NCBI GenBank assembly: GCA_937969495.1
Contig: CALBVY010000087.1
Span: 1-39,016, forward strand
DNA: 39,016 bases
From: an uncultured Verrucomicrobiales bacterium
GTDB lineage: Bacteria > Verrucomicrobiota > Verrucomicrobiia > Verrucomicrobiales > Akkermansiaceae
Direction: 5' to 3'
The position numbers and the translations under genes are program-made. Shown here piece by piece: positions 21,989 to 28,651 of the stretch (the stretch's first letter is position 1; the number at the start of each line of letters is the position of its first letter). The notes under the pieces are model-generated. The model searched no databases, was not told where the DNA came from, and saw only the letters and a program-made list of their open reading frames with translations.

Positions 21989-22810
21989 ATGAAATTAATT
22001 CAAACAGCCACTGCCGTTTTTGCCGGCATCGCACTGAGCACTGCTGTCCAAGCTCAATCTAAGCTCGTCATCAAAGGTTCCGATACTTTAGGAGCAAAGA
22101 TGGTTCCACAACTTGCCGAGGCATATAAGGCAGCAGGTAATAACGTCAGCTTCGAGATCGCAGCTGAAGGTTCATCCACTTGTTTCACCGCGCTTCTTTC
22201 AGGCACTGCTGACTTCGGTATGTCCTCTCGCGGCATCAAAGCCAGTGAGAAAAACAAATTTGCAAGCGCAGGCAAAGAAATTGTCGAGCACATTGCTGGC
22301 GTAGATATGATCGCAGTAATCGTCAACGAAGCCAATGGCGTCAAAAAGCTTACCAAAGAGCAAGTCGCAGGGATCTTCACTGGCACTATCACCGACTGGT
22401 CTGAAGTAGGCGGCAAAGCTGGCACTATCAACGTCTACACCCGTAACACTTCATCCGGCACTTACAAAACATTCCAAAAGCTTGGCATGGCTGGTAAAGA
22501 CTACGGAAAAAACAGCCAGAAAATGGCTGGTAATGAGCAAATTGCACAAGAAACAGCTAAAGATACAAATGGTATAGGCTACGTTGGCCTTGCTTACCTT
22601 AAAAAGGACGGTATTGCTCCTGTAGCTGTTAATGGCGTTCTGCCTGAGCCTGCAAGCGCTAAAGAGTATGCTCTTTCACGTAATCTTTACTACTACACCG
22701 TAGGTCAGCCTACTGGTGAAGCTGCTAAATTCATCAAGTGGTCAACTACTACCGAAGAAGCAGGTAAGATCATTGAGCAAGTTGGCTTCATCGCTCCTGC
22801 AGCGGAGTAA
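21989..22810 (+). CDS. pstS: Periplasmic phosphate-binding protein PstS
   Basis: A 273-residue substrate-binding protein delivering phosphate to the Pst transporter. The signal peptide is MKLIQTATAVFAGIALSTAVQA, without a lipobox. The mature start SKLVIKGSDTLGAKMVPQLAEAY and 'AAEGSSTCFTALLSGTADFGMSSR' give the phosphate-site serines. VYTRNTSSGTYKTFQKLGM is the second phosphate-contacting loop. This short form resembles the PstS2/PBP-like branch rather than the E. coli protein of about 340 residues. It is first in pstS-pstC-pstA-pstB-phoU and is separated from pstC by a strong hairpin, so it is probably made in excess. ATG start without a Shine-Dalgarno. Confidence 0.95.
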   Translation: MKLIQTATAVFAGIALSTAVQAQSKLVIKGSDTLGAKMVPQLAEAYKAAGNNVSFEIAAEGSSTCFTALLSGTADFGMSSRGIKASEKNKFASAGKEIVEHIAGVDMIAVIVNEANGVKKLTKEQVAGIFTGTITDWSEVGGKAGTINVYTRNTSSGTYKTFQKLGMAGKDYGKNSQKMAGNEQIAQETAKDTNGIGYVGLAYLKKDGIAPVAVNGVLPEPASAKEYALSRNLYYYTVGQPTGEAAKFIKWSTTTEEAGKIIEQVGFIAPAAE

Positions 22811-22954: not shown

Positions 22955-24925
22955 ATGAAAAAGAAGAGGCAAAAAAGCGAGAACCCCTTCTACTCGGGCT
23001 CAGGATTCCGAATTTTCGGTATCGGTAAGCAGGAGGCTATCAAATATTTTTTTGGTGGTAACGCCACGATCGCAGTTATCGTAATTGCGCTAATTATCGG
23101 CTTCCTCATCAAGGAATCCGCTACATTTTTCCCCCAATATCGCGACAGCTTAGATCTCTACCGCAAATCTGGACAAGAGTTTGTGAGCTTCTCTGATGAG
23201 CAACTAACCGCTCAGAAAAAACTCCCCTCACTGGTAACACAAGCCCGCGTTAACGAAATCGAAGAACGGCTAGGCGCCATCTACCGTGTGAGCTCCGTCC
23301 ACAGTGACTTTAAAACTAAGGTCTTAAAAAACACCTCCTCTGAACGCAAAGCTTACAAACGTGCTAAATCTAGACTCGAAAGCACTCAGGCTAACCAATC
23401 CTCCAGCGCGGACGAAAAAGAAGAGGCACAAGACGACTATGAAGCTGCAAGAGAAGCACTTCGTATCACAGCTCAAAAAACTGCTGATAGCCTAGACTAC
23501 GGAGACCTCAAAACCCGCTCCTGGGCTACCGATGACAAATACCTCACACCTATACGCAACTCCATCGTTGAAAACCTTCTGACTGGTGAGCAGACCGCAT
23601 TTCTCAAAGAAATTATCGCAGAAGAAACCAAGCTCGCCGAAGAGGTAAATCAGCTTGATTTCATTCGTAACCTTTCCAAAGCCAAGGATGGCTTTTCAGA
23701 ACACCTGCCAACATTCGAGAAATTTGTTGTAGGAATGGCTGAAATAGCCACCCAAAACAAAGCTCAAGCAATTAACTTTGTCACCGCCAAGAAACGCAAA
23801 GATGCACTCAAAGCAAAACTTGAGATAACCAATAACGAAGAAACAAAAATACGCACTGAACTAGAACTAAAACGAGTTCTTGATATTGAGCCCGACTACG
23901 CCGAACTGAATAAACCTTTCTACGGCTCTTTGGATAAGCACCTTGAGTTAACTAATCGTCTTCAGAAACAAAACAGGGAAGCATTTACCATCGTTCCCAG
24001 TGCCAGTGAATTCGAGTCCAAGATAGCACGCAAAAAAATCAAAGAGATCAAAGAAATTGAAAACTCAATCGACGAGCTTTTCACCGAAAAACGAAAGCAA
24101 ATAGAATCATGGAATCACTCCAAGCCATTTACCCTGAGCGAGGCAATCACCGGATTCTTTTTTGGCACCAAATGGATTACCAACTCTTCATGGCAGGATA
24201 TTTACGGCCTTGTACCTCTCCTCACTGGCTCCCTAGCCGTCGCCATCATTGCAGTTCTTATTGCCATTCCCTTTTCCGTGGGTGGCGCCATCTATGTCAA
24301 TCGGCTCTCCACACCGACAGAGCGCCAGATCATCAAGCCCTTTATCGAATTTATTGAAGCTATTCCATCCATCGTTCTAGCCTTCTTTGGCGTGGTGGTT
24401 CTTGGCACAGTGATCCAAGAATATTCACAATTACCATGGTTCTCATGGATTCCTGGCTTCCCTGTAGAAGGCCGTCTTACCATCTTAAATGCAGGACTCC
24501 TCCTCGCACTGATGTCAGTCCCTACCATCTTCACACTCTGCGAAGATGCACTCAATAACGTGCCCTCATCTTACCGAGACGCATCCCTTGCACTCGGAGC
24601 CACTAAATTACAAACCGTCACAAAAGTCGTTCTTCCCAGCTGTGCTTCAGGCATCATCGCCGCTGTGTTACTTGGGTTTGGCCGCATCATCGGCGAGACT
24701 ATGGTCGTGCTCCTCGTTATGGGTGGGCGCATCGCCATTCCTAAATCTTTTACAGATCCTGCACACTCCATGACAGGGATACTGGCTCAGGAAATTGGTG
24801 AAGTAGATCAAGGCTCCCTGCACTGGGGCGCTCTATTTATGGTCGGCTTTGCGCTCTTTGTGATCGCCCTAACACTCAATTACGTTTCTCAGCGTGTCTT
24901 GAAGAAATTCACCAAACACAGCTAA
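22955..24925 (+). CDS. pstC: Phosphate ABC transporter permease PstC with a large periplasmic helical insertion
   Basis: A 656-residue inner-membrane subunit, about twice the usual PstC. TM1 is at 36-53. The standard permease core resumes near 392 with [16 protein letters not shown] and [32 protein letters not shown], and includes the coupling loop [22 protein letters not shown] (540-561) that contacts PstB and [16 protein letters not shown]. Between them about 335 residues (55-390) are highly charged, helix-prone and coiled-coil-like (Lys/Glu/Ala/Gln-rich, e.g. 130-175, 215-240, 265-310 and 352-385). By the position of TM1 and the inward-facing core this stretch should be periplasmic. No frameshift is needed and the reading frame is clean throughout. 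It ends 13 nt before pstA. Confidence 0.92.
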
Positions 24926-24938
24926 CCCCTCTCTGACA

Positions 24939-27068
24939 ATGTCTGAAAAAGTATCCAATAACAATCCGTTCTGCCAGAGCAAGGGTGGTAAAAGATATCG
25001 AGAAAAACTCCAAAAGGCATTTTTCTGCTTTGCTACGTATTTCGTCCTACTTTGTGCATCCGTCATTTTTGGGAAAATCATTTATGAAGGCACTCCTGTG
25101 CTCTGGCGTATGGGGACAGATTTCCTTACCCAAAAACCACAAACACTGGCGGTAGTAGAAGCTATTGAGTCAGACAGTATTGAAATCCCCACAGAAAATT
25201 TCGATAACATTCTCCGTAGTAATGACGATGATGCTCTGCCCATTGACAATGTGGAAGAGTTTGAAAAATCATTTCCCTACAAACGCTTCAACCTCATGCC
25301 TGGTTCAATTATTGGTGAAGGCTACCTCAAAAATCTTGAGCAACAAAACGAGGGATTTTTCCTAATCTACACAGAGCGTGACACTGAGAGCCACGTAGGC
25401 TTCTCAATTGATCAAGAAAAATCGCTTACCCTAAAGTCTCCAGATTTTGAAAAACTCAAATCTCTTACCCCGGACTTAATCCCAGAAAAAATCACTCAGC
25501 GTCATATCACGCTCAATGATTTTAAACTCACCATTGCTCAAGGCGATTACAACATTAGTAAAACAGCTCACGATGCCTTGTTACCTACTTCTTTAGTCTT
25601 CCAGATGCGTGAAGGGTTTGCCGATGATGACCCTGAAAGTTCTCAGAAACCGGCCATCATCCCAAGCACACAAATCATCACGGTAGACTCTAATGTTTTT
25701 TTTACTGCTTTTGATGAAGATGAAGAAGGCACACTCGCTCTACAAGCTCAGGAAGAACTACCTCAGAAAACCACATTCTACGATTTCAAACTAGCCGCCG
25801 GGAACTACAGCGCACCACTTGCGGCTCTCTCTATCCTGGCAAAAACAGGAATCGCCACCCAGCACAACCTAACACGAGGATCAATCATCGTAAATCTTGA
25901 TGAACCCGTCGAACTAGAACTCTCAAGCTCAGATTATGAAAATTTAGTCGCGAATAATCCTAAACTTCAACTCAGCGCCATCGCAGACTTTGCAAAAAAA
26001 GCCGACTTCACACGCTTCAGCCTTGCTCAAGACGCGGAAATCCGGATCGATTCAGAAGATCTTGAAGCCCTGAACCAAGCCAACGAAAAAAGTGGCAACT
26101 TCAAAACAAACTCCAAGAATACCCACTCTTACGCAGGTGGGGGTATCCTAGGCCCTATCGTAGGCACAGCTCTACTCGTGATCATCTGCATGATCATTGC
26201 TCTTTTCACAGGGATTGCAGCAGCCACTTTCCTCAATGAATACGCGCGGAAAGGAGCCTTCACCAAGTCCATTCGCCTTGCCATGCTTAACCTTGCTGGC
26301 GTGCCTTCCATTGTATTTGGCCTCTTTGGTCTCGGGCTTTTTGTTATGTTAGCCCCCTCGCTCACCAGCACTCCGCATACAGAAAGTAAACTTTCCATTC
26401 CATTAGTCCCATTAGCATCTACTCCCCAGCTCCGCATCATCGAAGAAAAAGAAATCCACATGGTGAAGCACAAGGTCTCAACTTCAGAGGCCATCGTAGC
26501 AGCCAAATCAGAGAGCATGAAGTACTTCCATGATGGCTGGACTTATCTCTCCTTTCAGGGCTGGGGGACTTGTATGCTCGCTGGCGGCTTCACACTCGCC
26601 ATCATGGTATTACCCGTCATCATTACCTCCTGTGAAGAATCACTCCGCGCAGTCCCTATGGGCTTCCGTGAAGCATCACTCGCTCTCGGTGCTACCAAAT
26701 GGCAGTCCATCCGCACAGCAGTGCTGCCCTATGCTCTCCCAGGCATCTTAACAGCATCTGTATTAGGTATTACCCGTGTAGCAGGTGAAACAGCCCCTAT
26801 TATGTTCACCGCCGCTGCCGCTGAACGATCAGACATGCCGTGGGAAGCTGTGCAAGCCACAGGGTTCAGCGCCTTTATTGAATTCCTCCAACAGTCTGTT
26901 CAGGCTCTCCCCTATCACATCTATACAGTTGCTGGCCGTATCCCCCAATCGGAATACACCGAACCTATGCAATATGGTTCAGTGCTCGTGTTCATGCTCA
27001 TCGTAATGTCACTAGCAACTGTATCCATATGGCTACGCCTCCATTTCCGTAAAAAAATTAAATGGTAA
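24939..27068 (+). CDS. pstA: Phosphate ABC transporter permease PstA with a repeat-containing periplasmic insertion
   Basis: A 709-residue permease subunit; ordinary PstA is near 300. TM1 is at about 29-48. The core resumes at 400 with [26 protein letters not shown]. It includes [16 protein letters not shown], the coupling loop [22 protein letters not shown] (576-597) and [12 protein letters not shown]. Residues about 65-390 are an added, presumably periplasmic domain. I resolve this into about eight copies of a roughly 41-residue unit, each with a phi-x-phi-x-S-x-x-F-x-x-L element (starts near 81, 123, 163, 204, 247, 290, 326 and 368). A second, smaller insertion of about 55 residues lies at 474-530, between two core helices. 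The frame is open and continuous. Confidence 0.92.
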
Positions 27069-27088
27069 CCCTCTCCTCAACATTTATC

Positions 27089-27919
27089 ATGCAAGACACT
27101 GCTCAATCACCTAATCAGCAAGACGTAAACAGCACTTCTAACACAAAACCAGAAGGCAAGTCGATGATCGAGATCGATGACCTCTCGTTCAGCTACGACC
27201 AAGGGAAAACAAATACTTTACGCAATATCACGCTGAATGTTCCGGAGAAACAAGTCACCTCATTTATCGGACCTTCTGGCTGCGGTAAGTCTACGCTACT
27301 ACGCTGCCTGAACCGCATGAACGACCTCGTAGAAACTTCACGTATCACCACGGGGCAAATCCGCATCATGGACCAAGACATCAATGCCAAAAATGTCTCT
27401 GCCATCGAGCTGCGTAAGCAAGTGGGTATGGTCTTCCAAAAATACAATCCCTTCCCCAAAAGCATCTATGATAACGTAGCCTACGGCCTCCGTATCCAGG
27501 GTATTAAAAAGAAAGCCATACTCGAAGAAGCCGTAGAAAAAAGTCTCCGTGGAGCAGCTCTCTGGGATGAGGTCAAAGACCGCCTCAAGGACAGTGCTCT
27601 AGGCCTTTCCGGCGGTCAGCAGCAACGCCTATGCATTGCCCGTACTATGGCGGTAAAACCCAAGGTCATCCTCATGGATGAGCCATGTTCCGCTCTGGAT
27701 CCTATCGCCACCGCAAAAGTCGAAGAGCTAATCACCGAGCTACGCCAAGATTTCACCATTGTCATCGTCACCCACTCCATGCAGCAGGCCAGCCGGATTT
27801 CAGATCGCACTGCGTTCTTCTATCTTGGTGAGCTGATTGAATACGACACTACCGAACAGATTTTCACCAACCCGTCTATCAAACAAACTGAAGACTACAT
27901 CAGCGGCAGATTCGGATAA
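27089..27919 (+). CDS. pstB: Phosphate ABC transporter ATP-binding protein PstB
   Basis: A 276-residue ATPase that powers phosphate import. The Walker [10 protein letters not shown] is at 61-69, followed by [11 protein letters not shown], a PstB hallmark. Then come [22 protein letters not shown] (Q-loop), the signature [17 protein letters not shown], Walker [14 protein letters not shown] and the switch His in [16 protein letters not shown]. The N-terminal 25 residues are a polar extension absent from E. coli PstB. The start is ambiguous: ATGs at 27062 (overlapping the pstA stop), 27089 and 27164 are all in frame. I chose 27089 because it leaves a 20-nt gap like the other junctions of this operon; 27164 would begin at the conserved [11 protein letters not shown]. 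Confidence 0.95.
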
Positions 27920-27955: not shown

Positions 27956-28651
27956 ATGTCATCACATCAAGGACACATTCTTACTAACTTCGATGATGCT
28001 CTCAGCCAAATCAAGGAGGCTACCATCGGTATGGGCGCAGGAGCGCAGAGAAACCTTAATAACGCCATTCGAGGATTAATCGAGCGTAACAAAAGCCTCT
28101 GTGATACAGCCATTGCAGATGACGATGATGAGGACCGCTCCGAGGTAGAAATTGATCATCTTGGCATGAGGATCCTTACCAAATACCGCCCTCTCGCAAG
28201 TGATCTGCGTATGGTGATTACCTCTATGAAGATAGCGTCTCATCTGGAGCGTATCTCTGATCAAGCCGTCAGTATTGCTAAGCGTTCGCGTAAAGTGATT
28301 AAAAGCCCAGAAATCAAGGATGTCTTGAAAGTAGAAGGGTTTTATAAAGTTGCTTCTAGTATGCTCACTAACGCTATCACCGCTTACGCAGATGGTAATT
28401 CTGAACTCGCTTTAAGTGTGATTGAGGAAGAAAAACCTCTTAAAAAATGCCACAAAACCACTTCACGCGTCTTCGCTAAAACTCTTGAAGGGGAATCAGA
28501 ACATTACCGAGACTACCTTGACCTGGTCTTTATCTGCCGCTGGCTTGAGCGCGTGGGCGATCTAGCGATTAATATCGCTGAGGAAGTTGTTTTTGAAGAT
28601 ACATCCACAGATATTCGTCACGGTAGAGAACTACCTCCTGAGTTACAATAG
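27956..28651 (+). CDS. phoU: Phosphate signalling protein PhoU
   Basis: A 231-residue cytoplasmic all-helical protein made of two three-helix bundles. It shows the metal-binding E/D-x3-D motifs in HLERISDQAVSIAKR and RWLERVGDLAINIAEEV, and 'LGMRILTKYRPLASDLRMVITSMKIA' typical of the first bundle. PhoU links the Pst transporter to PhoR and represses the regulon when phosphate is plentiful. It is the last gene of the pst operon, 36 nt after pstB. Its stop codon lies only 2 nt from the stop of ftsW on the other strand, with no terminator in between. Confidence 0.95.
   Translation: MSSHQGHILTNFDDALSQIKEATIGMGAGAQRNLNNAIRGLIERNKSLCDTAIADDDDEDRSEVEIDHLGMRILTKYRPLASDLRMVITSMKIASHLERISDQAVSIAKRSRKVIKSPEIKDVLKVEGFYKVASSMLTNAITAYADGNSELALSVIEEEKPLKKCHKTTSRVFAKTLEGESEHYRDYLDLVFICRWLERVGDLAINIAEEVVFEDTSTDIRHGRELPPELQ

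Follow-up and report, generated by a model that had tools for sequence, protein, structure and literature searches.

The window analysed here is a stretch of 39,016 nucleotides from an uncultured Verrucomicrobiales bacterium of the family Akkermansiaceae. Its plus strand carries the gene series pstS-pstC-pstA-pstB-phoU, and phoBR adjoins the series on the minus strand (Table 1). The pstC product matched TIGR02138 with 243.7 bits (cut-off 196.45), but the match is confined to residues 392-652, and the sole Pfam match is BPD_transp_1 at residues 453-647. With a permease core above the curated cut-off and a pstSCAB-phoU context, the protein is assigned from sequence as a PstC with a presumed role in phosphate transport.

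Table 1. Features of the pst locus, in coordinates of the window
Feature	Positions	Strand	Description	Basis
pstS	21989..22810	+	Phosphate-binding protein; the insert is presumed to interact with it	PF12849 3.7e-41
pstC	22955..24925	+	Insert-bearing permease subunit of the phosphate ABC transporter, 656 aa	ORF; TIGR02138
PstC TM1	23054..23110	+	Residues 34-52	Hydropathy; aligned to TM1 of E. coli PstC 9k3s_B
PstC insert, start	23126..23272	+	Residues 58-106, membrane-proximal; L..YR.[SA]G.E[FY]VD motif, long helix 74-106	Alignments, model
PstC insert, extra helices	23279..23650	+	Residues ~109-232, specific to Verrucomicrobiales, missing in the 210-aa version	hhalign gap, alignment
PstC insert, second half	23657..24130	+	Residues 235-392, common with the 210-aa version, ending just past W386	hhalign, alignment, model
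PstC permease core	24149..24922	+	Residues 399-656	TIGR02138, Pfam, fold matches
pstA	24939..27068	+	Partner permease, 709 aa	TIGR00974 228.7 bits
PstA insert	25131..26138	+	TM1-TM2 loop filled by ~8 modelled beta-beta-alpha units	Model; self and cross hhalign
pstB	27062..27919	+	ATPase	ABC_tran 9.3e-31
phoU	27956..28651	+		PhoU 4e-33

Position and predicted fold of the PstC insert

An insert of about 335 residues (approximately 58-392) separates TM1 of PstC from the permease core in a clean reading frame; the initial annotation had placed it at residues 55-390, which is correct within a few residues. According to hydropathy, TM1 is followed by a transmembrane segment at residues 420-438, and no such segment lies between residues 52 and 420 (maximum KD 0.65). 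The N terminus is assigned to the cytoplasmic side by positive charge. The PstC model aligned with E. coli PstC (9k3s_B) at Z 18.2 and an rmsd of 3.4 over 269 residues (residues 24-656 of the model to 14-316 of the chain), which locates the insert in the first periplasmic loop.

The most frequent residues of the insert include E (11.8%), K (11.2%), L (9.1%) and A (8.8%), and the region between TM1 and TM2 has a net charge of -1 and is 79% helix in the model. AlphaFold2, supplied with 20 homologues, built the insert as about 13 helices with pLDDT of ~85-94, several of them spanning 26-33 residues; the model as a whole has a pTM of 0.60 and a core pLDDT of ~30-80, and the placement of insert relative to core is uncertain. 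As modelled, the PstC insert is a genuine folded, all-helical domain of the first periplasmic loop. The earlier description of a helical, non-random periplasmic insert in the TM1-TM2 loop, with the core intact and the frame clean, is thus borne out by the reading frame, hydropathy, model and relatives.

In an alignment of 24 diverse inserts, R70, G73, E75 and W386 are invariant, while the middle of the insert has only 13-17% identity to distant relatives. In these alignments the base of the insert, formed by the L..YR.[SA]G.E motif after TM1 and by W386 just ahead of the core, is conserved, and the middle of the insert is variable. Self-comparison of the insert for internal repeats like those of PstA (see below) gave 0.7%, and such repeats were rejected.

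Conservation and spread of the extended permeases

The distance between F58 and W407 equals 349 residues in all six nonredundant close relatives. Their identity is 34-59% in the insert and 74-90% in the core, and the nearest relative has 59% and 90%, respectively. NG86 dN/dS, limited to pairs unsaturated at synonymous sites, was about 0.11-0.14 for the insert versus 0.02-0.03 for the core. Judged by these ratios, the insert is clearly under purifying selection, roughly four to five times looser than that on the core. The constant span, the identity among relatives and the low dN/dS argue that the insert is not an artefact.

A genome scan kept 80 loci, all from Verrucomicrobiota, and together with the relatives these make 100 loci, 95 of them nonredundant. 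The insert-bearing PstCs of the 80 loci are found in pst operons, most with a PstS gene close upstream on the same strand. Of 240 genomes sampled, 37 contained the insert according to a combined profile; these belong to nine families and 27 genera, and the frames that carry it all measure 506-677 aa. Insert spans fall into three classes: 208-228 residues (Opitutae, Chthoniobacter and Methylacidiphilaceae), 286-302, and 323-398 (Verrucomicrobiales). By hhalign (99.9%, E 4e-32), homology between the long and the 210-aa inserts runs over their full length, and their length gap of about 120 residues corresponds to helices 109-232 of the window protein. In the rooted PstC-core tree, the 210-aa forms fall outside the long-form clade (93/100). 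Among the matches listed, plasmid PstCs align in the core only, from residue 384 onward, and an insert-only query gave zero matches to them. On this sequence evidence, the PstC insert is inherited within Verrucomicrobiota and phylum-wide, with all loci kept by the scan belonging to this phylum.

These data also bear on the possibility of neutral or structural growth, in which an insertion-tolerant surface loop has turned into a folded spacer that lacks a specific partner. Such growth would fit the varying length classes, the severalfold higher dN/dS of the insert and a 208-residue reversion (L108, L113) nested inside the long-insert clade. However, the domain is kept in several classes with invariant base residues, its absolute dN/dS is low, and its length is tightly held within clades; we consider neutral growth rather unlikely.

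The partner permease PstA also has an insert in the equivalent loop, real according to the model, as the initial annotation had claimed. This insert is self-similar (98%, E 3e-13 by hhalign), and the ~65-aa loop that occurs once in short Verrucomicrobiota PstA is matched by both the beginning and the end of the insert (E 1e-10 and 3e-8). On these matches, the 350-residue PstA extension is a tandem expansion of one ~65-aa unit found in short PstA (e.g. L013, L016 and L102); at L138 the PstA loop has 116 residues. Long PstA occurs at 12 of the 57 nonredundant long-PstC loci, and the other 45, one of which has an intermediate PstA loop, are without it; obligate co-extension of PstC and PstA is rejected by these counts. 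Every long PstA of the window kind that we found adjoins a long PstC, and the long PstAs form one clade (96/94) nested within the long-PstC clade. From this nesting we infer that the PstC extension came first and the PstA extension arose once and later, as ordered growth and not random gain. Paired, co-evolved extensions had been proposed in the initial annotation, with the random extension of one permease alone named as evidence to the contrary. The pairing is weakened by the 45 loci and the nested PstA clade: one permease is indeed often extended alone, but in a nested and ordered manner and not at random. The picture, from the initial annotation, of a PstC stalk and a PstA repeat platform above the pore is conjectural.

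A second segment of PstA, within its permease core, was also noted at residues 473-541 (positions 26355-26561 of the window). Its 68 residues in long PstA compare with about 25 residues for the other Verrucomicrobiales; Opitutae have 0.

Pst was previously found in 211 of 246 Akkermansiaceae genomes and is reported for Akkermansia muciniphila (PMC12872454). Phosphate is limiting for some members of this family. In our genome search, G015 (a genome of genus g3) lacked a PstC match. Within another single genus (g1, G000-G014), PstCs are only ~36% identical and belong to clades that lie far apart in the PstC tree, which suggests that the pst operon has been transferred or replaced.

Known domains and other occupants of the PstC loop

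Two Pfam domains known from other long Pst permeases were compared with the inserts and rejected. For PF12501 (DUF3708), neither the full PstC nor the insert alone gave a match at E<=1 and hhalign gave 0.1%, with a Sinorhizobium control at 1.4e-59. For PF11812 (DUF3333), the PstA insert had no profile match and an hhalign value of 0.1%, with a Sinorhizobium PstA control at 3.1e-54. The kinship of the inserts with these extensions raised in the initial annotation is therefore at chance level in profile-profile comparison. The architectures differ as well. Alphaproteobacterial PstCs with DUF3708 are lengthened too, but the domain (residues 7-170 of Sinorhizobium PstC, with predicted transmembrane segments) precedes the canonical TM1 (197-215), whereas the window insert follows it. 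DUF3333 is an extra domain in the TM1-TM2 loop of PstA, a subunit other than PstC, and the PstA insert and its unit are unrelated to it. E. coli PstC (PDB 9k3s, 9k3x and 9k3y) shares the core, TM1, operon partners and fold with the window protein, but has 319 aa and no large domain separating TM1 from the core.

No family in Pfam was common to 13 insert members, and the PDB hits of the insert profile were confined to helix bundles and coiled coils of a generic kind. Foldseek and VIA searches used the whole PstC model; since the permease core took up their hit lists, the fold of the insert was barely probed. Our literature search found no published description of the Verrucomicrobiota PstC and PstA inserts. 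At the level of sequence profiles, the PstC insert is uncatalogued, with no known Pfam family and no detectable DUF3708 or DUF3333 kinship. The transporter that carries this undescribed domain is itself already known.

Other domains were observed in the same loop. A second type of long PstC in Verrucomicrobiales (L149-L159), which we take to be Pseudomonas-like, has an insert of ~370 aa in this position. Its insert is WD40-like by profile (E 1.9e-6) and unrelated to the helical one (hhalign 0.1%), and the two types were never found together in any of 39 genomes. The PstA loop of its partner permease is long as well, with a charged, helical-looking stretch. In Bacteroidota, a Parabacteroides PstC (L144:2045-3232, 395 aa) has a fragment of a PstS-like PBP domain (PBP_like_2, PF12849, E 4.4e-7) in this loop, between TM1 and the core. 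Since helical, WD40-like and PstS-like domains that are unrelated occur in one loop, the PstC TM1-TM2 loop appears to be a recurrent insertion slot, used by at least three unrelated domains in different Pst systems. The role of the loop thereby becomes a testable question.

Possible roles of the PstC insert

Bacteria rely on Pst as their main importer of phosphate at high affinity and as their phosphate sensor, and its textbook permeases are bare. Verrucomicrobiota are common in soil, sea and gut. Given a large PstC domain that is missing from the searched libraries, their Pst may recruit phosphate or signal differently.

By analogy, the insert could act on PstS as a docking or gating arm in the periplasm, in a role like that of MalF P2; we put this forward tentatively, as quite possible but short of probable. 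At the membrane, the base of the insert would be attached to the permease, the outer helices would form an arm beside the channel mouth, and the arm would hold or orient PstS while phosphate is delivered. Since a single PstC was found in the genome (the second match is PstA itself), such an arm would act in all events of high-affinity phosphate transport and signalling. MalF P2 (residues 91-271) is a periplasmic domain grafted onto a type I importer permease, where it is in direct contact with its own binding protein, MalE (PMC3150292). However, it belongs to another transporter, has ~180 residues and contains beta-sheets, whereas the PstC insert is helical, so the analogy is one of role only.

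Two observations speak for a role near PstS: the insert, lying between TM1 and TM2, faces the periplasm, the side on which PstS must dock, and unrelated domains have repeatedly and independently come to occupy this loop, as would be expected if additional contacts close to PstS were useful time and again. Docking is further favoured by the confident helical model, the single PstC of the genome, the phylum-wide homology of the insert, its occurrence in pst operons with an upstream PstS and its dN/dS of 0.11-0.14. Against docking, E. coli PstC functions without an insert, evolution of the insert's middle part is faster than expected of an interface, the length of PstS shows no change accompanying insert length across the 80 loci, and insert and core are uncertainly placed in the model. 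The fast middle and the missing PstS correlate keep two alternatives in play, neutral growth into a spacer and a scaffold of the envelope. In the latter, the arm would cross the periplasm and tether the transporter to peptidoglycan or to an outer-membrane phosphate porin, coupling entry to uptake. The surface of the insert is highly charged and helices of 26-33 residues could extend tens of angstroms, but the 210-aa version would have a shorter reach and domain searches revealed no peptidoglycan-binding or porin-binding domain; we regard a scaffold as distinctly unlikely.

We regard as very improbable that the insert mainly tunes the readout of transporter states by PhoU and PhoR, rather than transport. 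The location of phoU downstream and of phoBR next to the operon would agree with such a signalling module, as would the proposal that conformations of E. coli PstSCAB signal via PhoU to PhoR (PMC5775613). However, the insert is periplasmic, whereas PhoU and the catalytic domains of PhoR are cytoplasmic, and the domain matches of PhoR comprise PAS and kinase only, with no periplasmic sensor domain among them.

The docking reading can be extended to the loop as a whole, as a slot in which unrelated PstS-handling modules were independently installed. The Verrucomicrobiota arm would then represent a new docking or gating class, with the PstA repeat platform joining it later in one clade; this broader proposal is possible but doubtful.
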